Shown here: positions 1 to 34,719 of the stretch, in pieces
How the letters are laid out: every line of letters starts with the position of its first letter
How positions within the stretch are numbered: the first letter of the stretch is position 1
Source: a virus
Reading direction: 5' to 3' (one strand)
Virus record (IMG/VR): IMGVR_UViG_3300048033_000685
Coordinates: 1 to 34,719 of that record
Length of the DNA stretch: 34,719 nucleotides
Position numbers and translations under genes: made by a program
Notes under the pieces: generated by a model
Database searches by the model: none
What the model saw: the letters and a program-made list of their open reading frames with translations, nothing else
Told to the model about the DNA's origin: nothing

Positions 1-127
1 ATGAATACTACCGTCTATGGCGAGGCATCTTCTCTTCTGAGGATCGTAACAGGGATTCAGAACGCTCGCAGATCATATCCCCTGCCCTTCAACAGGCCGT
101 AGAGTCTTCCGTTGCAGAGATTGAAGA
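1..127. repeat. Terminal direct repeat, left copy (assembly overlap)
   Basis: Bases 1-127 match 34593-34719 exactly, as far as I can read them. The portal reading frame is continuous when the two copies are merged. An exact 127-base end overlap is what a de Bruijn assembler using k=127 leaves on a circular contig, so I read it as a circularity mark rather than a biological terminal repeat. Confidence 0.95.
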
Positions 128-23601: not shown

Positions 23602-24030
23602 CTACCTCGTGGGAAAGGGCAGGTATACGTTTAGCTTCTCACTCAGGTGCTTGCTAAGAACCTGATGAACCTTGTCGTAATCCTCACCCGAAGCTGCGGA
23701 GGTAGAGTCCTTGCCTGTAAGTGCCTCCTGTACGGGCTTCCATAGATACTGCTTGACCAACTCTCCTGTCCACGGGATGTCCGTCTCCTGCTTCAAGGTT
23801 TTCTTCATGTCAAACCCTCCCTCGTTTAACGCCTGAGCTAATTGCCTACAGTAAACATGAAGCGCATTGTTCTGCTTGTGCGTCCTAGTCCTTCCGGCCT
23901 TCCACTTTAGCGTAACGTAACCCTTGGTGTCGTACAGGTGTTCGATGTGCTTAGTAAACATCTCTAAGCTGTGCTTGTTGTTGACGATCCAGAACTCTCC
24001 CTGAACCATCTCCTCCATATCAAGATTCAT
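23602..24030 (-). CDS. ninB: NinB recombination protein
   Basis: The 142-residue protein contains the NinB pattern RTHKQNNALHVYCRQLAQAL (about 48-67), then DIPWTGELVKQYLWKPVQEA and a Lys-Asp-Ser-Thr segment leading to VYLPFPTR. NinB (Orf) of lambdoid phages binds single-stranded DNA and substitutes for RecFOR mediators in recombination. Presence together with ERF, exonuclease and NinG completes a lambda-like recombination set. It overlaps the XRE regulator's 3' end by 11 bases. Confidence 0.9.
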   Translation of the reverse strand: MNLDMEEMVQGEFWIVNNKHSLEMFTKHIEHLYDTKGYVTLKWKAGRTRTHKQNNALHVYCRQLAQALNEGGFDMKKTLKQETDIPWTGELVKQYLWKPVQEALTGKDSTSAASGEDYDKVHQVLSKHLSEKLNVYLPFPTR

Positions 24031-24220
24031 TGAGCTTCAACACCTCGTCCATTGACATGCCCAAACCCTGACAGACATTGTGGAAGGTAGTGACTAACAT
24101 ATTCTCCCGCGAAAGCAGGTGAGAGTAGTTAGGTCTATCCATCCCTATCCTGTCTGCCACAGTCTTCTTCAGAATCCCTGTCTTCTCGTGGGCTTTCTGT
24201 ATACATTTCCCCGTGTGCAT
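24020..24220 (-). CDS. XRE-family HTH regulator (Cro-like size)
   Basis: The 66-residue protein is one helix-turn-helix domain: TGILKKTVADRIGMDRPNYS forms the two recognition helices and LLSRENMLVTTFHNVCQGLG the remainder. Small single-domain XRE proteins act as Cro-like repressors. It starts at an ATG preceded by an ideal GGAGGTG, right after the strong terminator at 24229-24254, so it leads the second half of the early operon. Its operators are unknown; palindromes near 31393 and 31702 are candidates. Confidence 0.8.
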   Translation of the reverse strand: MHTGKCIQKAHEKTGILKKTVADRIGMDRPNYSHLLSRENMLVTTFHNVCQGLGMSMDEVLKLNES

Positions 24221-26290: not shown

Positions 26291-27262
26291 TTAAAATAAA
26301 AACTTGTCGCGGTCAACATTGTCTTCGAAATAAAAATGTACTGGCCTGTCCTCCTGCTCGGTTAACTGTAAGCTGTTGGAATGAAAGTAAAAATTGTACC
26401 TTCCCTCCCAACTTCCGTGCCTTTGTTTAGCGACAACAACGTACTGGTCGTAACTTTTTTCTAAATACTCCTGCTGCTTTTCGTCTAGCTCTACCAGTTT
26501 AGATAGCTCTTTTAGCTTGTGCCTTTTCTGATTGGCGGCAATGACTAGCACGTTATCCGCGAGGTCGGAGATGGTAGATGCACCTCGGATGTCATGCTTG
26601 TCCCCGATGTAATCCTCTCCTGCATTCTGAGGCTTTCTTAGGTGGGCAATAAGCATCACATGAATACCCAATGTCTTACAGGCATGCTGTAGTCGGTTGA
26701 TGAAATCAGTCTCCCCGTTGCGGTCGTCAAACTTAATCCCGCACTTGGTCAGAGAGTCTATGACCATGAATTTCACGCCCAATTCCTTGGCACAGTAGTG
26801 GACTACCGCGAGGATTCTGGCGCTTTCAACTGTGTCCAACTGGTCGTAAACTACTATGTTCTTGTCGGCAAAATCGGCGAACTGGTTGATAAATCCCTCA
26901 GTAGGATCGCCGTCCTTTGCTCCGGCAGACTGTAGGCACATCCTCCACAAGGTTTCGGAGGGCTTCATCTCGAGAGAGGCAATGCAGACCTTGGAATGCT
27001 TCGCCAGTTTCAAGCATATCTGTCCTACGATCATAGACTTCTTAGCCCCGTTAGCTCCTGCCACGATGGTCAACTCACCCTCGCGGAGTCGGAACGTGTC
27101 GTAGGTCTTAGGCCACGGCAGGGTAGCGCCCCATATCTTTTCGCCCTTTGATCTTTCAATGACAGCTTCCCGCCAGTGTCCGGCAGACTTAACCTGTTGG
27201 GCTTCCATCATCGAAGTTAACTCAATGTATTTATCTAGCTCCAAGCCTTCGGGTATCTTCAC
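26291..27262 (-). CDS. Replicative helicase, T7 gp4 C-domain/DnaB-like
   Basis: The 323-residue RecA-fold helicase has a short N-terminal segment and Walker A at 69-76 (GANGAKKS), where Lys replaces the usual last Gly. It also shows the Walker B-like FMVIDS (165-170), LIAHLRKP, and DIRGASTISDLADNVLVIAA, which matches the T7 gp4-type motif with arginine finger Arg226. There is no TOPRIM domain, so it is helicase only; the zinc part of a primase is a separate gene at 27864. It is presumed hexameric and loaded by the initiator upstream. It overlaps that gene by ATGA. Confidence 0.87.
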   Translation of the reverse strand: MKIPEGLELDKYIELTSMMEAQQVKSAGHWREAVIERSKGEKIWGATLPWPKTYDTFRLREGELTIVAGANGAKKSMIVGQICLKLAKHSKVCIASLEMKPSETLWRMCLQSAGAKDGDPTEGFINQFADFADKNIVVYDQLDTVESARILAVVHYCAKELGVKFMVIDSLTKCGIKFDDRNGETDFINRLQHACKTLGIHVMLIAHLRKPQNAGEDYIGDKHDIRGASTISDLADNVLVIAANQKRHKLKELSKLVELDEKQQEYLEKSYDQYVVVAKQRHGSWEGRYNFYFHSNSLQLTEQEDRPVHFYFEDNVDRDKFLF

Positions 27263-27867
27263 AACTCAATCTCCCACGAGGCAGTAGGCTTCTCTTTCGC
27301 TAACTGCTCCTTCCTGCGACTCTCCCACGTTCTAACCGTAGCCTTCCACGATTTCATTTTATTAGTCCCCACAAGCCACCCTTTTGACTCGTACCAGTCC
27401 ACGAATCTCTCTGCGTCAATGCCATTGCCTCGCTCCTTACAATAAGCTTTCACCTCCTCAACTGTCGGTGGCTTAAATATATTGTTTTCTTGTTTATTGT
27501 ATAGTTGTTGTCGCTTCGGCTGTCGTTTGCTTGGCGTTTGCTTGTCGCTGTCCTGATACTGGCAGTAGTTAGTTATTGATATTATTGAATATTTATTGAA
27601 ATTCTGCTTGTCAATTTGGTGACAGTTTTCGAACCGTTTGATTGTCGTTCTTAATCGCCTCACTGAGATGCCTAGTCTGGTGCTTGCAGAGTGAAGGCCG
27701 AAGACTATCTGTCCTCGCTTTAAATTCAATGGCTTACCGTTAAATGAGACGGTCTTATCCTCTATCGCAGCACCCATCAGCAGGTAGAGCCAAAGCTTCA
27801 AAGCCTCGGGGTCATCCCACATAAAACTATCCTGTATCTTGCGGTCTAGCCTGATCCACCCGTTCAT
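27259..27867 (-). CDS. Replication initiator / replisome organiser (lambda O-like)
   Basis: The 202-residue protein starts GWIRLDRKIQDSFMWDDPEA, KLWLYLLMGA, RGQIVFGLHSASTRLGISVR, the wHTH origin-binding domain found in phage replisome organisers. A Gln/Lys-rich linker (110-130) and a C-terminal domain (VEEVKAYCKERGNGIDAERF, then KSWKATVRTWESRRK) follow, typical of helicase-loading proteins. Like lambda O, its linker-coding DNA holds short iterated repeats beside AT-rich sequence (27505-27610), a candidate origin. It overlaps the zinc-finger gene (ATGA) and helicase. Confidence 0.85.
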   Translation of the reverse strand: MNGWIRLDRKIQDSFMWDDPEALKLWLYLLMGAAIEDKTVSFNGKPLNLKRGQIVFGLHSASTRLGISVRRLRTTIKRFENCHQIDKQNFNKYSIISITNYCQYQDSDKQTPSKRQPKRQQLYNKQENNIFKPPTVEEVKAYCKERGNGIDAERFVDWYESKGWLVGTNKMKSWKATVRTWESRRKEQLAKEKPTASWEIEL

Positions 27868-28256
27868 ATCTCCACCCCAACTGAGTTGAGCAGAGCCTGA
27901 GCCTTGTAGATTGCCTTGCGGTCGGAGTCCGTAGGGTTAAGATTCCCCTCGCTTGCCCAAACATGTACCAATTCCATCAGGCATTTCGCTGAATCTATTT
28001 CCTCGCGGGTAGCCTTGTTAAACTCCGGCTTGTACCCGTCATCGGGGTAAATATCCGACCAGTTAAGACCCGCAGCGGAAAGGATAGCTTCTCCAGTGCA
28101 TCCCGCGAAGCAATGGATCAGGATTTTGCCGTTGTCTAAGTGCTTGATACTTAAGGAACTAGACCCGTCATCGTGGGCAGGGCATTTCGCCATTGCCTTG
28201 TTGCCAGATTGCCTGACATCCTCGAGCCTTGATAAAACCTTGTTGTAGTCTGACAT
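27864..28256 (-). CDS. Stand-alone primase-type zinc-finger protein
   Basis: The 130-residue protein has the CHC2-like zinc-binding module of phage primases: AKCPAHDDGSSSLSIKH with C25 and H28, then ILIHCFAGCTGEAIL with C49 and C53, followed by LNWSDIYPDD. The catalytic TOPRIM domain is missing: after residue 75 only a helical tail (VHVWASEGNLNPTDSDRKAI) remains. It might act with host DnaG or as a template-recognition factor for the helicase. Its ribosome site (AAAGGG) lies inside a possible hairpin at 28263-28282. Confidence 0.8.
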   Translation of the reverse strand: MSDYNKVLSRLEDVRQSGNKAMAKCPAHDDGSSSLSIKHLDNGKILIHCFAGCTGEAILSAAGLNWSDIYPDDGYKPEFNKATREEIDSAKCLMELVHVWASEGNLNPTDSDRKAIYKAQALLNSVGVEI

Positions 28257-28262
28257 GATTTT

Positions 28263-28282
28263 CCCTTTGTGTTTTCAAAGGG
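28263..28282 (-). promoter_or_regulatory. Hairpin able to hide the ribosome site of the zinc-finger gene
   Basis: On the minus strand CCCTTTG, a six-base loop and CAAAGGG form a 7-bp stem ending about seven bases before ATG 28256. The AAAGGG arm is the gene's Shine-Dalgarno, so folding would block it. This may limit expression of the primase-like protein. Confidence 0.4.
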
Positions 28283-28337
28283 ATAGGGTATTCTACGCAT
28301 AGCCGCGCAGTTTCCCCTCCCCTTGTGTTCTGCGTGG

Positions 28338-28943
28338 TTAGTCCCCTTCGGGGGACGTTTCTAACAATTCACCCCAACGGGTTAACCCTGCACTCTCTAA
28401 TCTGTGCGGGTTTCGCATTTTCCTTACCGCCTTGCCGTATACTTGCCGAACCCGCTCTTTACTAACACCGTACACATTACCTATCGCTTCCCATGTATGC
28501 TCCTCCCCCTCGAACCCGAGACGTAGCGACACGACATCCGCCTCCCTTTTGGTTAGCATACCCAACATACTCTTAACTGCCTCGCGCTTTGAGTCTAGCT
28601 CGATAATCTTAGCAGGGTCTAGCGCATCAGCCTCGAGGCGTACTAATTCATTGGCGCTCGCCTGAATGGTTTTTTTATTAGTCTTTAATGGCTCGATCAT
28701 CTGAGCCTCAGGGTATAATTCGTGCGGCATGAGATTAAAGAAATCGCAAAGCCTCATGAAACATTGCCGATACTCCCCGCGAAAATCGTACACTGTCTCC
28801 TGAAGGTTTAAATACCTACACGCCTGATTGTGAGTAATCCCCGATTGTCTAGATAATTCAGCAGCGGAAGCTATCCCCCTGCTATCCATAGCACTGGCTA
28901 AGAGATTATTTTTAACCTTTATTTCTACCCGATAATCCTTCAC
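28338..28943 (-). CDS. HTH and sigma-70 region 4 transcription regulator
   Basis: This 201-residue protein joins an XRE-like HTH (about 12-78, AAELSRQSGITHNQACRYLN and a PHELYPE end) with a sigma-70 region 4 (about 120-180). The latter includes LTKREADVVSLRLGFEGEEH, WEAIGNVYGVSKERVRQVYG and KAVRKMRNP. The last part closely follows RpoD region 4.2, which contacts -35 boxes and beta-flap. Regions 2 and 3 are absent, so it cannot be a full sigma. It could be an activator or sigma appropriator switching host polymerase to phage promoters. The start is GTG 28943 after GGGGAGGG, downstream of a stem-loop (28959-28989). Confidence 0.82.
   Translation of the reverse strand: MKDYRVEIKVKNNLLASAMDSRGIASAAELSRQSGITHNQACRYLNLQETVYDFRGEYRQCFMRLCDFFNLMPHELYPEAQMIEPLKTNKKTIQASANELVRLEADALDPAKIIELDSKREAVKSMLGMLTKREADVVSLRLGFEGEEHTWEAIGNVYGVSKERVRQVYGKAVRKMRNPHRLESAGLTRWGELLETSPEGD
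28341..28356 (-). other. GTCCCC hairpin at sigma gene stop
   Basis: GTCCCC, a four-base loop and GGGGAC make a perfect 6-bp stem directly before the stop of the sigma-4 gene, so the last codons form the stem. No T-tract follows on the minus strand, so it is probably an RNA stabiliser or pause rather than a terminator. Confidence 0.45.
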
Positions 28944-29017
28944 TAAAAACCCTCCCCTCGCTCAGGCCTCCACAGCGGCGATCTGAGCGATGTTATTGAT
29001 ACCCCTTGTGTTGGCAT
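28943..29017 (-). CDS. Possible 24-residue leader peptide before the sigma gene
   Basis: An ATG at 29017 opens a 24-codon frame (MPTQGVSITSLRSPLWRPER, then GEGF) whose stop TAG shares its G with the GTG start of the sigma-4 gene. A Shine-Dalgarno is weak. Exact stop/start sharing is the reason to list it; it could couple translation of the regulator. It may be chance. Confidence 0.2.
   Translation of the reverse strand: MPTQGVSITSLRSPLWRPERGEGF
28959..28989 (-). promoter_or_regulatory. 5' leader stem-loop before the sigma-4 gene
   Basis: CGCTCAG and CTGAGCG (7 bp, loop 17) fold just upstream of the GAGGGGAGGG ribosome site of the GTG-initiated sigma gene. The 108-base stretch 28944-29051 also holds an ACAAGGGG motif at about 29002-29008. 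I infer translational or transcriptional control of the regulator. Confidence 0.4.
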
Positions 29018-29051
29018 TAGTTTCTCATTTAAATCGCTTACACGCGAGATG

Positions 29052-29273
29052 CTAAGCTTCTACGATGGTTATTTCCGCTTGCATGTAGGCGGTCGCAATA
29101 TCCTCACACTCTTTCTGTAGTAATCGCATGCCATTCTCGCGGTAATCTCTCTCTACTAAGAAGGATTTATCCTTAGCGTGTTCGCGTATGTAAGCTTGCT
29201 TCGCTTGCTCGGCTTGTTCCTCGGTCTGATAACCCAAACCGAATAGCCCGTTTTTCCCTTTTAATCTGTACAT
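29052..29273 (-). CDS. Small basic early protein
   Basis: The 73-residue protein (MYRLKGKNGLFGLGYQTEEQ, then AEQAKQAYIREHAKDKSFLV) is charged and helical. An ACAAGGGG lies about 11 bases before its ATG. It overlaps the preceding secreted-protein gene by 13 bases. No family recognised. It belongs to the cluster of small early proteins often involved in host takeover. Confidence 0.6.
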   Translation of the reverse strand: MYRLKGKNGLFGLGYQTEEQAEQAKQAYIREHAKDKSFLVERDYRENGMRLLQKECEDIATAYMQAEITIVEA

Positions 29274-29464
29274 GTTATATCTAGCCCCTTGTAGTCTGGA
29301 TGCCCCGCCGATCCTTCGCTTGTTCGGCTACCACCTGTAGCGTACCACAAGCATACGGACTCGGTGTAGTAGTTTTCGGCGTTAATCTCGTCCTCGTAAT
29401 CCCACTGCCCCGCGAGCAGTAATAGTCCCGCGAGCGTTAGCATTGCCAGTGTCTCTTTAATCAT
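29261..29464 (-). CDS. Small exported/membrane protein
   Basis: I choose ATG 29464 (MIKETLAMLTLAGLLLLAGQ), preceded by GGAGG, over the longer frame at 29491. The 67-residue product has a hydrophobic N-terminal segment (6-19) and a short mature part with two cysteines (SVCLWYATGG, then GHPDYKGLDITCTD). A C-x-x-W...TGG...G-P-DY pattern with a final Cys recurs in small secreted phage early proteins of unknown function. A periplasmic site is likely; superinfection exclusion is one idea. Confidence 0.65.
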   Translation of the reverse strand: MIKETLAMLTLAGLLLLAGQWDYEDEINAENYYTESVCLWYATGGSRTSEGSAGHPDYKGLDITCTD

Positions 29465-29639
29465 CTTGATCCTCCAATTTAGGGTAAACATTCAGCGCGT
29501 ATTCCTGCGCTTCCTCAATCTCTTTCGGCGTGCATAGCTGAGATAGCTCGTACACTAATTGCAATGCGTCCTCGAGCCTATGCTTCGGTGCTGTTAACGC
29601 TAACATTAGCGCGTTAGTTAGTGCCTGTTTGTGATTCAT
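29457..29639 (-). CDS. Small helical early protein
   Basis: The 60-residue, all-helical protein (MNHKQALTNALMLALTAPKH, then LEDALQLVYELSQLCTPKEI) ends in an acidic tail (KLEDQDD). AAGGGGG precedes the ATG by six bases. It overlaps its upstream neighbour by 26 bases and the exported-protein gene by 8. No family recognised. Confidence 0.6.
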   Translation of the reverse strand: MNHKQALTNALMLALTAPKHRLEDALQLVYELSQLCTPKEIEEAQEYALNVYPKLEDQDD

Positions 29640-29838
29640 GCCACCCCCTTAACTGAAAATCTAGCTCATCCTCTCGAGCGATCCTCGAGTATTCTATTTC
29701 CTCGCTTACCATCGCAGCGTAGTCAAAATAATCATCATCTCGCGCTTGTTCTATTGCGTCATCCTCCGATGCCGCCTCGTACAATCTAAACTCACCCCAT
29801 ACTTGCGCCGTTCTGGTGACTACCCAGTATTTATTCAT
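29614..29838 (-). CDS. Acidic early protein
   Basis: The 74-residue product opens with MNKYWVVTRTAQVWGEFRLY, a beta pair, then AASEDDAIEQARDDDYFDYA and further acidic residues. It ends RGWHESQTGTN. GGGGG precedes the start. The negative charge resembles DNA mimics, but there is no family evidence. Overlaps by four bases with the upstream gene. Confidence 0.6.
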   Translation of the reverse strand: MNKYWVVTRTAQVWGEFRLYEAASEDDAIEQARDDDYFDYAAMVSEEIEYSRIAREDELDFQLRGWHESQTGTN

Positions 29839-30197
29839 GCTATGCCCCCTATCTCGTCATATACCGCATAGGCTTCGCCGAATGATTCCGAAATCTTGGT
29901 AAACATTTCGGAATAAGTGTCGCCGTATACTTCCGGCTTATCCCAAAATCCTACGCCATGACCATTACGGGTAAGCCAGAAATCATGCCCCGCTTGCTCT
30001 ATATTCTCAGGTGATAGGTAACACTCAATGCGGCTATAGAATGCGAGACAGTCGATTATAGACTCGCGCAGAAAATCCTCATCAATCTCCGCGCCAATCG
30101 GCGGCTGTCCTTCCTCCCCTAATTCTGTAAAGTCTACCGCTTCAAGATACGCGGCAATAAATTGAGACTCTTTCTTATTGGTTTCTATTATGTGCAT
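29835..30197 (-). CDS. Conserved phage early protein with HDFWLTRNGHG motif
   Basis: The 120-residue acidic protein contains GHDFWLTRNGHGVGFWDKPE at about 70-90. This very conserved signature belongs to a family found in many unrelated phages and some plasmids, with no agreed function. Usual members have an acidic N-terminal half, as here (FTELGEEGQPPIGAEIDEDF). AAGGGG precedes its ATG. The invariant His, Trp and Asp look functional. Confidence 0.8.
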   Translation of the reverse strand: MHIIETNKKESQFIAAYLEAVDFTELGEEGQPPIGAEIDEDFLRESIIDCLAFYSRIECYLSPENIEQAGHDFWLTRNGHGVGFWDKPEVYGDTYSEMFTKISESFGEAYAVYDEIGGIA

Positions 30198-30227
30198 TTT
30201 ATTTTTCCCCTTAAGTGATTGATTATG

Positions 30228-30491
30228 TTAGAATTGCCGTGCATTAATAATTTGTTCGGCTGTGTTTTCTACGCTATAAGACTGCGCAACAAACCCGCCG
30301 CCAAAATCCCTGCCTCGATAGACTTGAAAGCCTATTGAGTTTGCTACCTTCTTTGCCGTGTCGTAATCCTTACCGAATGCGAGCCAGTGGATGACGTAGC
30401 GCGGATTGCCGTTGACATCGTTTCTAACTCGGTACAGGTCGTAACCTAGCGCGTCCTCTGTTTTGTAGTCTAAGTGTGCCTTGCTGTTCAT
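30228..30491 (-). CDS. Conserved small early protein (YDLYRVRND type)
   Basis: The 87-residue product has GYDLYRVRNDVNGNPRYVIH, AFGKDYDTAKKVANSIGFQV and YRGRDFGGGFVAQSYS, a pattern I associate with small conserved proteins of phages and plasmids. Function is unknown. CAAGGGG precedes the ATG by seven bases. The upstream gap holds a GC hairpin at 30513-30530. Confidence 0.7.
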   Translation of the reverse strand: MNSKAHLDYKTEDALGYDLYRVRNDVNGNPRYVIHWLAFGKDYDTAKKVANSIGFQVYRGRDFGGGFVAQSYSVENTAEQIINARQF

Positions 30492-30512
30492 AGTATTCCC
30501 CTTGTTAAGAAT

Positions 30513-30530
30513 GCCCCGCCGAAACGGGGC
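30513..30530 (-). terminator. GC-rich hairpin between small early genes
   Basis: On the minus strand GCCCCG, a TTTCGG loop region and CGGGGC form a 6-7 bp stem, followed by ATTCTT. The loop contains TTCG, a stabilising tetraloop. T-tract is weak, so partial termination or RNA-end protection are both possible. Confidence 0.5.
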
Positions 30531-30538
30531 GTTAGTGT

Positions 30539-30751
30539 TTAAAAGTTTAATGCGTTAGCAAATAAGTCTTTTGGGTTTTGGTTAAAGTTAAACACTTGAA
30601 TATAAATCCCCGTGCATCCTAACGCTTCAAGCTTTTTGACTACTTCTTTCGCTTGTTTCATGTCTTTGATTCCCGCATGTTCCGATACCAAAATATCGTC
30701 ATACTTTTCCGTTGAATCTTTTCTACCCCAAATAATATATTGATCTTTCAT
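30539..30751 (-). CDS. Small early protein
   Basis: The 70-residue protein (MKDQYIIWGRKDSTEKYDDI, then MKQAKEVVKKLEALGCTGIY) has a beta-alpha-beta feel like small phage proteins annotated as ferredoxin-fold hypotheticals. It ends NPKDLFANALNF. CAAGGGG lies seven bases before its ATG. No family is assigned and function is unknown. Confidence 0.65.
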   Translation of the reverse strand: MKDQYIIWGRKDSTEKYDDILVSEHAGIKDMKQAKEVVKKLEALGCTGIYIQVFNFNQNPKDLFANALNF

Positions 30752-30752
30752 G

Positions 30753-30941
30753 CTATTCCCCTTGCGTTGAATAATAAGGTGATTGATAAGCTTTATGACT
30801 CTCCATCTCTAACTCGCTAGGCACTCGTAACCCATTAGACTCGAATGCCCGTATTCTTTTTTGCAGATCGTTATAGCGATTAACTTGTCTGTCATCCCAT
30901 TGAATGCCGTATATATCTACAAATCCGTAATTTACTAGCAT
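30753..30941 (-). CDS. Small early protein
   Basis: The 62-residue product (MLVNYGFVDIYGIQWDDRQV, then RYNDLQKRIRAFESNGLRVP) is charged and helical in its second half. CAAGGGG precedes its ATG. It lies one base from the next gene. No family recognised. Confidence 0.6.
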   Translation of the reverse strand: MLVNYGFVDIYGIQWDDRQVNRYNDLQKRIRAFESNGLRVPSELEMESHKAYQSPYYSTQGE

Positions 30942-30961
30942 GTTCTATCCCCTTGGGTTAT

Positions 30962-30977
30962 GCCCGCCGAAGCGGGC
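30962..30977 (-). other. GCCCGC-TTCG-GCGGGC hairpin
   Basis: On the minus strand GCCCGC, TTCG and GCGGGC form a perfect 6-bp stem with the extra-stable UUCG tetraloop, between the first and second annotated leftward early genes. Only ATAACCC follows, no T-run. It is a likely RNA stabilising or processing element. Confidence 0.55.
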
Positions 30978-30985
30978 GTGATTGT

Positions 30986-31219
30986 TTAGACTTGCGCAAT
31001 TAATCGAGCGATTACCGCATCCGCATAATTGCCGTATTCCTCGTTAAATCCATTATGTAGATTGCGGGCATCTATAGCGCATGATCCGATTACCTTCTCG
31101 ATATCACCGTCCCTGGTTGTCGCTAGTATTAATTTCGCACAATGGCTTGGTAAGACTTGCGCCTCGTAAAAGTTAATCAATAGGCTTGCTGTGGTTGTCA
31201 TTGTTTTGTGTAGTTGCAT
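30986..31219 (-). CDS. First sizeable leftward early gene, unknown function
   Basis: The 77-residue protein (MQLHKTMTTTASLLINFYEA, then SHCAKLILATTRDGDIEKVI and YGNYADAVIARLIAQV) has no known motif. CAAGGGG precedes the start by nine bases. As the gene nearest the switch region after the tiny frame at 31417, it is likely transcribed first and strongly. Host-takeover proteins often sit here, but no evidence names it. Confidence 0.65.
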   Translation of the reverse strand: MQLHKTMTTTASLLINFYEAQVLPSHCAKLILATTRDGDIEKVIGSCAIDARNLHNGFNEEYGNYADAVIARLIAQV

Positions 31220-31318
31220 AAGGTTATCCCCTTGGTTAGTGATTGTTGCGTTGTCGCTTAATACAATGCAGACAGCGTGCCAACTTTTACAATGCCAATA
31301 GATTCAATGGCTTAGAAG

Positions 31319-31408
31319 GATTACTGTATAGATACACAGTGATTGAGAGTGTTACTGTGTTACCGTAAAACGTTACTGTGTTACTGTGAGAGTGTTACCG
31401 GTAACAGT
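31319..31408. repeat. TGTTACYG iteron array with perfect palindrome
   Basis: Units of TGTTAC(T/C)G start at 31350, 31358, 31371 (CGTTACTG), 31379 and 31393; the last is joined to an inverted copy to give the 14-bp palindrome TGTTACCGGTAACA (31393-31406). A related TTACTGTA/ACACAGT pair is at 31321-31340. Pairs of units repeat at 21 bases, two helical turns. This is typical of protein-binding iterons, as in origins or operators, just upstream of the leftward early genes. Confidence 0.8.
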
Positions 31409-31410
31409 AC

Positions 31411-31429
31411 TGCCCCTTATTCAGGGGCA
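31411..31429. other. TGCCCCT/AGGGGCA hairpin
   Basis: TGCCCCT, loop TATTC and AGGGGCA form a perfect 7-bp stem next to the iterons. It covers the stop codon of the minus-strand small frame at 31417. A weak T-rich run (TTGTCT) follows on the plus strand and none on the minus strand, so terminator strength is doubtful. Confidence 0.5.
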
Positions 31430-31566
31430 TTGTCTAGCAGATATAAACCGCGAAGGATCGCGATCTGTTGATCGGTTAACTGCCGCTCGAGTGCTACTAT
31501 ATTGCGGTCGCTTGATTGTTTCATTGTTTCTCTGATTTGTTCGATTAGTGTGTTGATGAGAATCAC
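31417..31566 (-). CDS. Possible 49-residue leader-region protein
   Basis: A minus-strand frame from GTG 31566 encodes VILINTLIEQIRETMKQSSD and ends in GLYLLDNAPE; an internal ATG at 31524 gives 35 residues (MKQSSDRNIVALERQLTDQQ). It is strongly amphipathic with good codon use (few rare codons, ordered Leu/Ile heptads). A competing longer frame here (to 31606) reads as random residues. The SD context is poor: the only AGG overlaps the GTG itself. It may be the first early gene or a small regulator. Confidence 0.4.
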   Translation of the reverse strand: MILINTLIEQIRETMKQSSDRNIVALERQLTDQQIAILRGLYLLDNAPE

Positions 31567-31680
31567 CTATATATATTGAGTTAATAAATTTTATTGCGTT
31601 GTTCAATAGGCAGACGAACCAGGATCAGGATTTATTCCACCAATTTAAAATTTATTTTTGGGACTCTATTGGCTGCTTTT
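31566..31680. other. AT-rich divergent promoter/unwinding region
   Basis: This stretch contains TATATATA near 31568 and long A/T runs (TTAATAAATTTTATT; CAATTTAAAATTTATTTTTG), the most AT-rich part of the noncoding region, beside the iterons. No gene is convincing. It could house leftward promoters and a melting site. I find no clear -35/-10 pair. Confidence 0.4.
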
Positions 31681-31701
31681 CCTACCCCCACACTCACTGC
31701 A

Positions 31702-31737
31702 TGGCGAATCTCGCCACTATTTGGCGAATCTCACCAC
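31702..31737. promoter_or_regulatory. Tandem palindromic operator-like sites
   Basis: TGGCGAATCTCGCCA (31702-31716) is a perfect inverted repeat (TGGCGA/TCGCCA, three-base centre). A near copy TGGCGAATCTCACCA follows at 31722-31736, offset by exactly 20 bases, about two helical turns. This is the geometry of two dimer sites bound on one DNA face. They sit between the two operons, upstream of an extended -10. Confidence 0.7.
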
Positions 31738-31751
31738 CTGGGGTCGATTGA

Positions 31752-31777
31752 GGGGACGGGGGGAGGGGACGCGCGGG
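31752..31777 (+). other. G-quadruplex-type G-run
   Basis: G-runs at 31752-31755, 31758-31763, 31765-31768 and 31775-31777, with loops of 2, 1 and 6, satisfy the canonical four-run pattern on the plus strand; another GGGG at 31740 adds to it. It lies 8 bases upstream of the extended -10. Confidence 0.5.
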
Positions 31778-31784
31778 CGTGAAA

Positions 31785-31793
31785 TGTTATAGT
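31785..31793 (+). promoter_or_regulatory. Candidate extended -10 promoter for the late operon
   Basis: TG-T-TATAGT matches an extended -10 (TGnTATAAT with one change). No sigma-70 -35 is visible at 17 bases upstream, where the sequence is GC-rich; the tandem palindromes lie 50-80 bases upstream. It would give a leader of about 150 bases before ATG 31950. An alternative weak pair is TTGTAC/TAAAAA at 31872-31899. Confidence 0.4.
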
Positions 31794-31949
31794 TGCCCCC
31801 CAAATTTGCAGCAGGTAATTTTAAAAAAAAAGCCAAAACCAACCCCGCTACACGCCGCGTTATGTGTAGAGTTGTACAAAAATTAGACAATAATAAAAAC
31901 TCATGTTTAAATCCTTTCAATTATTACCCATTACTAATACGAACCTGTT

Positions 31950-32321
31950 ATGAACGACAACGTAGACAAGCCTAAACGCAGAGTAGGTAGACCCCGCAAG
32001 GATGAGTTAATCCCACCTAAGAGAGGTAGGGGTAGACCTAAGGGCGACCACTCCGCAATGAAGGAGATGAAGCAGAGGTTCTTAGCTAGAAGGGACACTC
32101 CTGCGGTAATAGACTCTATCTTCAAAGCGGCTATGGATGACGACCACAAGAACCAGTCTGCGGCTTGGAAGCTTATTGTGGACAGGATTCTCCCTGTGAG
32201 TGCGTTTGACAAAGATAAGCTTGGTGGAAAGCCTACGGTCAACATCACTATTTCAGGCGTAACAGATACGGTCGTAGAGCCTGATATACTAGAGGGGGAG
32301 TTCAGTGAAGACCCAGAATAA
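31950..32321 (+). CDS. AT-hook DNA-binding protein, candidate terminase small subunit
   Basis: The 123-residue protein has two AT-hook-like motifs in its basic N-terminus (VGRPRKDE and RGRGRPKGD) and a helical middle (EMKQRFLARRDTPAVIDSIF, then DDHKNQSAAWKLIVDRILPV). A short beta/acidic tail (VNITISGVTDTVVEPDILEG) follows. First in the late operon, two small genes and a lysozyme before the large terminase, it fits a DNA-recognition subunit. Classical TerS HTH is not obvious. No Shine-Dalgarno precedes the ATG, unusual among its neighbours. Confidence 0.6.
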   Translation: MNDNVDKPKRRVGRPRKDELIPPKRGRGRPKGDHSAMKEMKQRFLARRDTPAVIDSIFKAAMDDDHKNQSAAWKLIVDRILPVSAFDKDKLGGKPTVNITISGVTDTVVEPDILEGEFSEDPE

Positions 32322-32736
32322 TCTGATTGATCTGCTAGTCAAGCATGAAGGGTTAAGAACTAAGCCCTACGAAGACACTACAGGACACCTGAGCATAGGC
32401 GTAGGGAGAAACCTTGACTCTTTAGGGTTATCTCACGATGAAATCTACTATATGCTCAAGAACGACATCAGAAGGTGTGAGGAAGAACTAGACAACGCCT
32501 TCCGGTGGTACAAGTACCTAGACCAAGTGCGTAAGGATGCCATGATATCATTATGTTTCAATCTAGGTATTACAAGGTTGAGGAAGTTCAAACTAGCTCT
32601 TAAGGCTATGGAGACTGACGACTTCGAGGAAGCTGCGGATGAGTTCTTGGATTCTTTGTGGGCTACTCAGGTTGGTCAACGTGCCGTAGAGATAACCTAC
32701 ATGATTAGATATGGAGAATACTATGCCAATGGTTAA
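32305..32736 (+). CDS. T4-type lysozyme (GH24 endolysin)
   Basis: The 143-residue endolysin has the GH24 core LLVKHEGLRTKPYEDTTGHL with Glu15, Asp24 and, in SIGVGRN, Ser30 where T4 lysozyme has Thr26. The later ALKAMETDDFEEAADEFLDS and GQRAVEITYMIRYGEY are standard. No signal peptide, so it needs a holin. Start is GTG 32305 with GAGGGGGAG upstream. It overlaps the TerS-like gene by 17 bases. Its place at the head of the late operon beside packaging genes is unusual but known in some podoviruses. Confidence 0.9.
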   Translation: MKTQNNLIDLLVKHEGLRTKPYEDTTGHLSIGVGRNLDSLGLSHDEIYYMLKNDIRRCEEELDNAFRWYKYLDQVRKDAMISLCFNLGITRLRKFKLALKAMETDDFEEAADEFLDSLWATQVGQRAVEITYMIRYGEYYANG

Positions 32737-32836
32737 TGGTAAGAAGTACGCTTATACAACAGCCGGAAAGGCCGCAGCTAAGAAGGCAGCAGCAAAGTCA
32801 GGCACTAAGCCCAAGATGGCTAAGAAGCGCAAGTAA
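32723..32836 (+). CDS. Very small lysine/alanine-rich basic protein
   Basis: A 37-residue gene (MPMVNGKKYAYTTAGKAAAK, then KAAAKSGTKPKMAKKRK) lies between lysozyme (14-base overlap) and the next gene (shared base TAATG). Composition is that of a histone-tail-like DNA-binding peptide. Such tiny basic proteins are common near large terminase genes of marine podoviruses. Packaging or DNA condensation is inferred. Confidence 0.65.
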   Translation: MPMVNGKKYAYTTAGKAAAKKAAAKSGTKPKMAKKRK

Positions 32837-33231
32837 TGGCCTACACGAAACCCGGATTACGCGAGAGTATTAAGAAGCGCGTAATGGCAGGGTCTAAAGG
32901 CGGTAAGGCAGGTCAGTGGTCAGCCCGTAAAGCTCAGCTTGTAGCTCAAGAGTACAAGGAGAAGGGTGGCGGCTACTCAGGTGGTAAGACCAAATCCCAA
33001 AAGTCTTTATCCAAGTGGACTAAAGAGGAATGGGGTACGAAGTCAGGCAAGCCATCTACTCAAGGCAAGAAAGCCACGGGAGAAAGGTATCTTCCCAAGA
33101 AGGCTAGGGAATCCCTGTCCTCAAAGGAATACGCCGCTACCTCGCGGAAGAAACGCCAAGACACAGCTAAGGGTAAACAGTTTTCCAAACAGCCCAAGGC
33201 TATAGCAAAGAAGACATCGAGAAGTAGATGA
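32836..33231 (+). CDS. Basic DUF5872-like protein upstream of terminase
   Basis: The 131-residue, strongly basic protein has KPGLRESIKKRVMAGSKGGK, QWSARKAQLVAQEYKEKGGG, SKWTKEEWGTKSGKP and RYLPKKARESLSSKEY, which match the DUF5872 pattern known in phages and some bacteria. Function is unknown; positive charge (about a quarter Lys/Arg) suggests nucleic-acid binding. Starts at TAATG overlap and overlaps the terminase start by ATGA. Confidence 0.78.
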   Translation: MAYTKPGLRESIKKRVMAGSKGGKAGQWSARKAQLVAQEYKEKGGGYSGGKTKSQKSLSKWTKEEWGTKSGKPSTQGKKATGERYLPKKARESLSSKEYAATSRKKRQDTAKGKQFSKQPKAIAKKTSRSR

Positions 33232-34475
33232 ATCTAAACATCAGTCTCCTAGAGTGGCAGAAGAAGGTTTGGAACGACCCCACACGTTTCAAGGTGGTTG
33301 CTGCGGGTCGCCGGACGGGCAAGTCTCGTCTGGCGGCTTACCTTTTGATTGTCAACGCTCTGAAGTCTGAAAGAGGACAAGTGTTCTATGTCGCCCCTAC
33401 TCAGGGTCAGGCTAGGGACATTATGTGGAATCTCCTCTTGGAGATAGGTCAACCCGTCATCGAGTCCTCTCATGTTAATAACATGCAAGTCCGCCTAGTA
33501 AATGGGACTACCATTAGCTTGAAAGGTGCGGACAGACCTGAGACTATGCGCGGTGTAAGTCTTAAGTTTCTTGTCTTGGATGAATACGCGGACATGAAGC
33601 CCGATGTATGGGAGTTGATTTTAAGACCTGCGTTGACAGACCTGAAAGGAGAAGCCTTATTTATTGGGACACCAATGGGTAGAAATCATTTCTATGAACT
33701 CTACAAGCAAGCCAGTTTAGGCACAGACCCCACGTTTAAGGCATGGCACTTTACAAGCTACGACAATGACTTACTAGACGAAAACGAGATTAACTCTGCG
33801 AAAGCAGGGATGTCCTCCTATGCCTTCCGTCAGGAATTCATGGCCTCCTTTGAGGCTAGGGGTTCTGAGATGTTCAAAGAGGACTGGATTAAGTTTGACG
33901 AGGAAGAGCCGACTACTGGTGACTACTATGTCGCCATTGACCTCGCGGGCTTTGAGGAAGTAGGAAAGAAGACCAGAAACAAGAAACTTGACAACACTGC
34001 TATAGCTGTAGTAAAAGTCGGCGAATATGGATGGTGGGTTTGTGATATAATAGCCGGACGTTGGGAGTTGAACGAGACTGCCCAGAAGATATTTCAGGTT
34101 GTTAGGGACTACGAACCCGTCTCAGTCGGTATAGAAAAAGGCATAGCCCGTCAGGCTGTGATGTCTCCGCTTACCGATCTTATGAGGAAATATCAGCGTT
34201 TCTTCCGTGTTGAGGAATTAACCCACGGAAACAAAAAGAAGACAGACCGTGTGATGTGGGCATTACAGGGTAGGTTTGAGAATGGCATCTGTACCTTAAA
34301 CAAAGGTGAGTGGAATGTCCAATTCTTAGACGAGATATTTCAATTCCCTGATGCTCTAACACACGATGACATGGTGGACGCACTAGCCTACATAGATCAG
34401 TTGGCTACTGTGTCCTACGCGTATGACTTTGAAATTGATGACTACGAAGTCATAGATTCTGTTTCGGGATATTAA
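33228..34475 (+). CDS. terL: Terminase large subunit
   Basis: The 415-residue DNA-packaging motor has the ATPase domain with Walker A AAGRRTGKS (25-33), Walker B FLVLDEY (114-120, Glu119) and coupling FIGTPMG (145-151). The RNase H-like nuclease follows with Asp238 (YVAIDLAG), Glu303 (VGIEKG) and Asp380/Asp384 (HDDMVDA). All catalytic acids are intact, so it should both pump and cut concatemers. Two bases separate it from the portal start. Of the TerL classes it looks podovirus-like, but end type cannot be deduced. Confidence 0.95.
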   Translation: MNLNISLLEWQKKVWNDPTRFKVVAAGRRTGKSRLAAYLLIVNALKSERGQVFYVAPTQGQARDIMWNLLLEIGQPVIESSHVNNMQVRLVNGTTISLKGADRPETMRGVSLKFLVLDEYADMKPDVWELILRPALTDLKGEALFIGTPMGRNHFYELYKQASLGTDPTFKAWHFTSYDNDLLDENEINSAKAGMSSYAFRQEFMASFEARGSEMFKEDWIKFDEEEPTTGDYYVAIDLAGFEEVGKKTRNKKLDNTAIAVVKVGEYGWWVCDIIAGRWELNETAQKIFQVVRDYEPVSVGIEKGIARQAVMSPLTDLMRKYQRFFRVEELTHGNKKKTDRVMWALQGRFENGICTLNKGEWNVQFLDEIFQFPDALTHDDMVDALAYIDQLATVSYAYDFEIDDYEVIDSVSGY

Positions 34476-34477
34476 GT

Positions 34478-34719
34478 ATGCTAGAAAGCAACGAAGATCA
34501 ATTTGGCATAGAAGAGACGCTAGAGTCTTGGGTTATGGAGAAGTGCCGTGAGTGGCGCGACCATTACGAGTCGAACTATGAAAACAAGTTCGATGAATAC
34601 TACCGTCTATGGCGAGGCATCTTCTCTTCTGAGGATCGTAACAGGGATTCAGAACGCTCGCAGATCATATCCCCTGCCCTTCAACAGGCCGTAGAGTCTT
34701 CCGTTGCAGAGATTGAAGA
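34478..34719 (+). CDS. Portal protein, N-terminal part (continues at 1)
   Basis: The gene starts at ATG 34478, two bases after TerL, with MLESNEDQFGIEETLESWVM and EKCREWRDHYESNYENKFDE as first residues. It runs open to the window end in the frame that continues at position 3 of the window after the 127-base overlap is merged. The N-terminal acidic helix with WRG (near 45) is like podovirus portals. Confidence 0.85.
   Translation, partial: MLESNEDQFGIEETLESWVMEKCREWRDHYESNYENKFDEYYRLWRGIFSSEDRNRDSERSQIISPALQQAVESSVAEIE
34593..34719. repeat. Terminal direct repeat, right copy (assembly overlap)
   Basis: Identical to 1-127. The true junction is inside the portal gene, and no extra copy of portal codons results from joining, so circularity or terminal redundancy is implied. 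Confidence 0.95.

Follow-up and report, generated by a model that had tools for sequence, protein, structure and literature searches.

A phage protein joining an XRE-type domain to sigma70 region 4, a candidate early regulator acting on host RNA polymerase

The viral DNA analysed here, IMG/VR record IMGVR_UViG_3300048033_000685 (34,719 bases, below called the window), carries on its minus strand a gene for a protein that combines an N-terminal XRE (Cro/CI-type) domain with a C-terminal sigma70 region 4. The open reading frame (ORF) runs from a GTG start at 28943 down to 28338, and the plus-strand reading of the same interval is riddled with stops. The coordinates and the length of 201 residues agree with a preliminary description of this DNA, which had proposed a Cro/CI-type helix-turn-helix (HTH) fused to an RpoD-like sigma region 4 and lacking region 2. 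Pfam searches, structure models and a family of related proteins bear out this proposal, and the two-domain architecture is confirmed. Pfam Sigma70_r4 matches residues 126–177 (E = 4e-12; 45.8 bits, cut-off 24.1), and the Pfam models for sigma regions 1–3 gave no match in the protein. The match to HTH_26 (Cro/CI), at residues 16–75, is below threshold; the isolated N-terminal domain reaches 20.8 bits with a cut-off of 22. Residues K162, E163, R166 and Q167 occupy the positions of sigma70 residues 584, 585, 588 and 589.

Structures were predicted with AlphaFold2 (five models) on the family alignment, and the N-terminal 96 residues were also predicted alone. The model of the full protein (mean predicted local distance difference test score, pLDDT, 82; predicted template modelling score 0.48) contains two folded domains, the mutual placement of which is uncertain; a linker connects them. 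Prediction of the protein by itself thus gave both the HTH and the sigma-4 fold. The isolated N-terminal domain (pLDDT 93) superposes on P22 c2 repressor, 434 repressor, 434 Cro and SinR with Z values of 7.2–7.7 and on a Deinococcus regulator with Z = 8.5, values that are middling for small helical domains. Its list of structural matches consists mostly of XRE proteins, together with XRE-like domains of phosphonate enzymes and MBF1. The domain is predicted to begin with a strand at residues 4–9 and to be closed by a second strand at residues 90–95. The C-terminal domain superposes on residues 530–611 of E. coli sigma70 with Z = 12.5 and 1.4 Å over 81 residues, at 37% identity.

An assignment of the N-terminal domain to sigma region 3 was also considered. 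Two matches had prompted it: a BFVD entry named ‘Sigma-70 region 3 domain protein’ and a tblastn alignment in which 88% of one family member's length aligned along RpoD. This assignment was ruled out: the isolated domain superposes on XRE repressors, the Pfam matches are to HTH_26 and HTH_3 with none to region 3, and ahead of region 4 the RpoD alignment does not keep the register of the sigma-3 HTH.

Scans of viral contigs yielded 34 and then 79 overlapping loci, near-duplicates included; fragments and odd loci (L030, L058, L084, L085) are omitted from the family count. The architecture described earlier for the window protein recurs in at least 77 viral contigs, that is, at least 77 viral loci where the N-terminal signature and sigma region 4 occur together. 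A non-redundant set at 85% identity comprises 43 members, 41 from the window or viral contigs and two from contigs of metagenome-assembled genomes (MAGs). Sigma70_r4 is present in all 43, and sigma region 2 or 3 was matched in none of them in the Pfam search. HTH_26 is matched by 30 members (best 1.3e-7) and PHROG 36 ‘transcriptional regulator’, which we take to be the ArpU group, by 22. The fusion is kept across many contigs at 27–88% identity with one N-terminal signature, KDYRxEIKxKNN, and is therefore beyond chance. The most conserved positions of the family are R5, E7, K9, N12 and N13, in the N-terminal strand, and N89. The XRE recognition helix (positions 37–45) is variable, as expected, since operators would be phage-specific.

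Six family queries recognised no full-length relative in a collection of 50,697 phage records, and none of the isolated-phage records covered had the complete architecture. In BFVD, a 200-residue protein labelled ‘uncultured marine virus’ (A0A0F7L6V6) aligns over 181 columns; such sequences are thus probably already deposited, and no function was found for this entry. The sigma factor of Salisaeta phage 1 (86% coverage, 23% identity) was set aside as a 340-residue protein of another architecture. Literature searches found no description of the XRE–sigma4 architecture. As far as these searches reach, the family is undescribed, while phage substitutes for sigma region 4 are known in principle. 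Scans of cellular genomes returned two full-length members. One (L086) lies on a short contig with NinB-like and replication-protein-like ORFs, which looks like phage. The other (L087, 7989–8663), on a Ca. Adlerbacteria MAG contig, stands beside genes for alanyl-tRNA synthetase, uracil-DNA glycosylase, S11 and RpoA; among 380 Patescibacteria genomes, only this one held a full-length member, and the remaining matches resemble RpoD.

Two further loci have different arrangements. In L030 (2332–3096), the family N-terminal domain is followed by a second XRE-like stretch where sigma region 4 is expected, which is either a domain swap or an assembly chimera. In L088 (7995–9044, Ca. Taylorbacteria), a 349-residue protein carries sigma region 4 close to its N-terminus, followed by other sequence, a further region-4-without-region-2 architecture, in a bacterium.

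The residues of sigma70 that contact the −35 element or bind the core enzyme were taken from published lists (PMC4943231). The −35-contact residues R554, R562, R586, R588, Q589, K593 and R596 are retained in 77–91% of members; of the core-binding residues, E555 is retained in 93% and the position of L598 is hydrophobic in 100%. The identity to E. coli sigma70 is 0.59 for the −35 set, 0.64 for the core set and 0.44 for the rest of the domain, with permutation p values for contact-residue enrichment of 0.07 (−35 set), 0.12 (core set) and 0.04 (union). Judged by these residues, the pattern fits a region 4 that would still bind the DNA backbone and polymerase, perhaps with an altered −35 preference.

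The features of the locus are collected in Table 1. A 127-base direct repeat at the ends of the window (1–127 and 34593–34719) fits a complete genome assembled as a closed circle. The minus-strand arm comprises, in order, small early genes, the fusion gene and genes for a primase-type zinc domain, a DnaD-like loader, a DnaB-like helicase, an Erf annealing protein, an exonuclease, SSB, a second, stand-alone XRE-type protein of 66 residues (XRE66, 24020–24220), NinB, an endolysin-family protein and NinG. The plus-strand arm encodes packaging, capsid and tail proteins. A tyrosine integrase was not found in the window record. A sister genome of 34,853 bp, with a fusion protein 87.5% identical, is syntenic with the window. 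In a 33,410-bp genome (52% protein identity), the operon of the fusion gene runs into a helicase-like ORF, the primase domain and HNH-like and terminase-small-like ORFs. Across the family, DNA polymerase, helicase and primase are the genes most often found nearby. The fusion gene and terminase are on opposite strands in six of the eight records with both placed, the call for the 33,410-bp genome depending on our reading of its small-terminase-like ORF. The position relative to the late operons, to which the preliminary description had drawn attention, is accordingly among the early and replication genes, most often with the packaging genes on the other strand. In the window, about 3 kb separates the fusion gene from the late operon, and the gene is not directly upstream of a late promoter. 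The hairpin CGCTCAG/CTGAGCG in its 5′ leader was discarded as a riboregulator: its stability is ordinary and no higher than that of shuffles (z −0.4/−0.5), and it has no Rfam match.

Table 1. Coordinates of the fusion gene, its domains and the surrounding features in the window.
Feature	Coordinates	Strand	Remarks
XRE–sigma4 fusion gene	28338..28943	−	201 aa, GTG start
N-terminal strand (predicted) KDYRVEIKVKNN, residues 1–12	28908..28943	−	best-conserved part of the family
XRE (Cro/CI-type) five-helix domain, residues 13–83	28695..28907	−	HTH helices 27–34, 38–45
sigma70 region 4 domain, residues 109–195	28359..28619	−	superposes on E. coli sigma70 530–611
sigma 4.2 helix-turn-helix, residues 151–176	28416..28493	−	includes K162, E163, R166 and Q167
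5′ leader of fusion gene	28944..29051	−	between gene 29052 and fusion gene; kept in sister genome
Downstream replication genes	26291..28256	−	primase-type Zn domain 27864–28256, DnaD-like loader 27259–27867, DnaB-like helicase 26291–27262
LexA-box-like palindrome TACTGTATAGATACACAGTG	31322..31341		adjoins repeat array
Repeat array: GTTACYGT ×4 + palindrome GTTACCGGTAAC	31351..31405		candidate operator
Block kept in sister genome, upstream of packaging genes	31871..31908	+	possible late promoter region, weak −10
Late operon start	31950..34475	+	putative small terminase, endolysin, terminase large subunit

In the intergenic region, an 87-bp block (31321–31407) matches the sister genome at 88.5% identity, with diverged flanks, and contains both the LexA-like palindrome and the repeat array. 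The array is built from direct repeats with a pair spacing of about 21 bp and lies about 130 bp from the first start of the early operon versus about 545 bp from the late operon. When the intergenic sequence was shuffled 5,000 times, three or more GTTACYGT repeats within 60 bases never occurred, for a pattern that was picked post hoc. The array is a good candidate for an operator of the fusion protein, of XRE66 or of both; as proof of an operator of the fusion protein it was rejected, XRE66 being an equal candidate and the array missing in other genera. The LexA-like palindrome has three mismatches to TACTGTATATATATACAGTA, none of 100 shuffles gave one, and it is also present in the sister genome (L091, about 398–417); the early region of the phage may respond to host SOS regulation. 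Nearer to the packaging genes, the blocks 31787–31815 and 31871–31908 are near-identical in the sister genome and may represent either a late promoter or a packaging site. A promoter scan of 27000–34719 was uninformative (11 sites, 10.5 expected).

Searches for transcription genes agree with the earlier suggestion that the phage has no RNA polymerase of its own, at least of the T7 type: PF00940 was silent in 46 carrier records and positive in phage T7. Sigma region 2 (PF04542) gave no match in the 46 records at E ≤ 0.001 and none in 18 of the longer ones at E ≤ 10, although a highly diverged sigma-2 could escape; both absences fall short of proof, since many carrier records are fragments. The same loose setting finds a 188-residue T4 frame (E = 0.004) where gp55 is expected, and from the T4 map we take this frame to be gp55.

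Architecture, conservation, gene position and the lack of a detected T7-type polymerase point to what we regard as the most likely reading, one evenly balanced between right and wrong, namely that the fusion protein is an early phage regulator, a sigma-4 mimic addressed to operators and acting on host RNA polymerase. The XRE domain would bind phage operator DNA. The sigma-4 domain would replace region 4 of host sigma70 on the beta-flap and/or read a −35-like element, while region 2 of host sigma70 would keep supplying promoter melting. As a result, host RNA polymerase would be redirected between early and later phage promoters. An early-to-late switch by this protein is plausible and unproven, since polymerase contact, operator identity and regulatory sign are the inferred parts of the proposal. 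Several observations weigh against it. The −35 and core enrichment in region 4 is modest, and conservation peaks outside region 4, at N12, N13 and N89. Of the base-reading residues of sigma70, R584 and E585 (PMC2613000), the positions are retained in just 35% and 53% of members (K and E in the window protein). The array was seen in no carrier outside the window and sister lineage, and it is not assignable to the fusion protein, since XRE66 and the LexA-like box are also contenders.

A more specific version, which we offer tentatively as one possibility, is that an operator-binding domain with its own sigma region 4 strips the host polymerase of the host −35 reader and parks it at phage operators. 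This would be appropriation of sigma function by one DNA-tethered protein, and the phage would have no need of a polymerase or a sigma-2 of its own.

The same retained −35 contacts would also suit a two-headed repressor, in which the XRE and sigma-4 HTHs both bind DNA, at −35-like elements as well as at an operator, so that host-type promoters are blocked and the polymerase is never contacted. XRE proteins are commonly repressors, and the sole array in the window is close to the start of the early operon. However, the core-binding positions E555 and L598 are retained as well as the DNA-contact positions, and the stand-alone XRE66 could already provide plain repression; we consider this explanation rather unlikely.

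It is quite improbable that the fusion protein is one half of a split sigma factor, with a separate, highly diverged phage sigma-2 melting promoters in the manner of gp55/gp33 or SigO/RsoA. Split sigma domains have a precedent in T4 (PMC2988020), and many early proteins of the window belong to no known family. The PF04542 searches nonetheless were empty at both thresholds, and the loose one does recover the T4 frame at the place expected for gp55. Least probable is a replication-linked factor that ties the array, as an iteron-type origin or enhancer, to replication: the replication genes that most often neighbour the family and the direct repeats with their regular spacing would suit it, but the array is not common to other genera, and we know of no replication-initiation role of sigma-4 domains.

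If the reading as an operator-addressed sigma-4 mimic is true, sigma region 4 would be usable as a portable module for docking to RNA polymerase. The ordering of gene expression in small phages without an RNA polymerase is mostly unknown beyond T4, lambda and a few Gram-positive models, and the XRE–sigma4 protein is a concrete, easily recognised switch candidate in many uncultured phages.

Among known systems, the primary sigma factors RpoD/SigA share with the fusion protein a complete region 4; the fusion protein is without regions 1–3, and an XRE domain replaces everything N-terminal. The XRE repressors of phages (P22 c2, 434 CI/Cro) have the same N-terminal five-helix fold, whereas the fusion protein has extra N- and C-terminal strands on this domain and sigma-4 instead of the repressor C-terminal domain. 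In B. subtilis, SigO/RsoA is a two-subunit sigma factor that divides promoter recognition between polypeptides and has no XRE domain; unlike in that system, no RsoA-like partner was found for the fusion protein. S. aureus phages provide known cases of late regulators encoded in the early gene cluster (PMC13123087), and those of the RinA/LtrC/ArpU kind are likewise phage-encoded and made from the early cluster. In contrast to these, the fusion protein has 201 residues and an XRE domain, and the window gene, about 3 kb away from the late operon on the opposite strand, is not the small protein directly upstream of the late promoter that is typical of RinA/Ltr. T4 gp33, which ‘can be thought of as a sigma4 mimic’ (PMC2988020), is similarly a phage-made substitute for sigma region 4 without region 2; gp33 itself has no DNA recognition, and its partners are gp55 and the gp45 clamp. 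Unlike gp33, the fusion protein retains −35 contact residues, has a fused XRE domain and has no gp55-like partner found; core-contact positions of sigma70 region 4 are partly retained in the fusion family.
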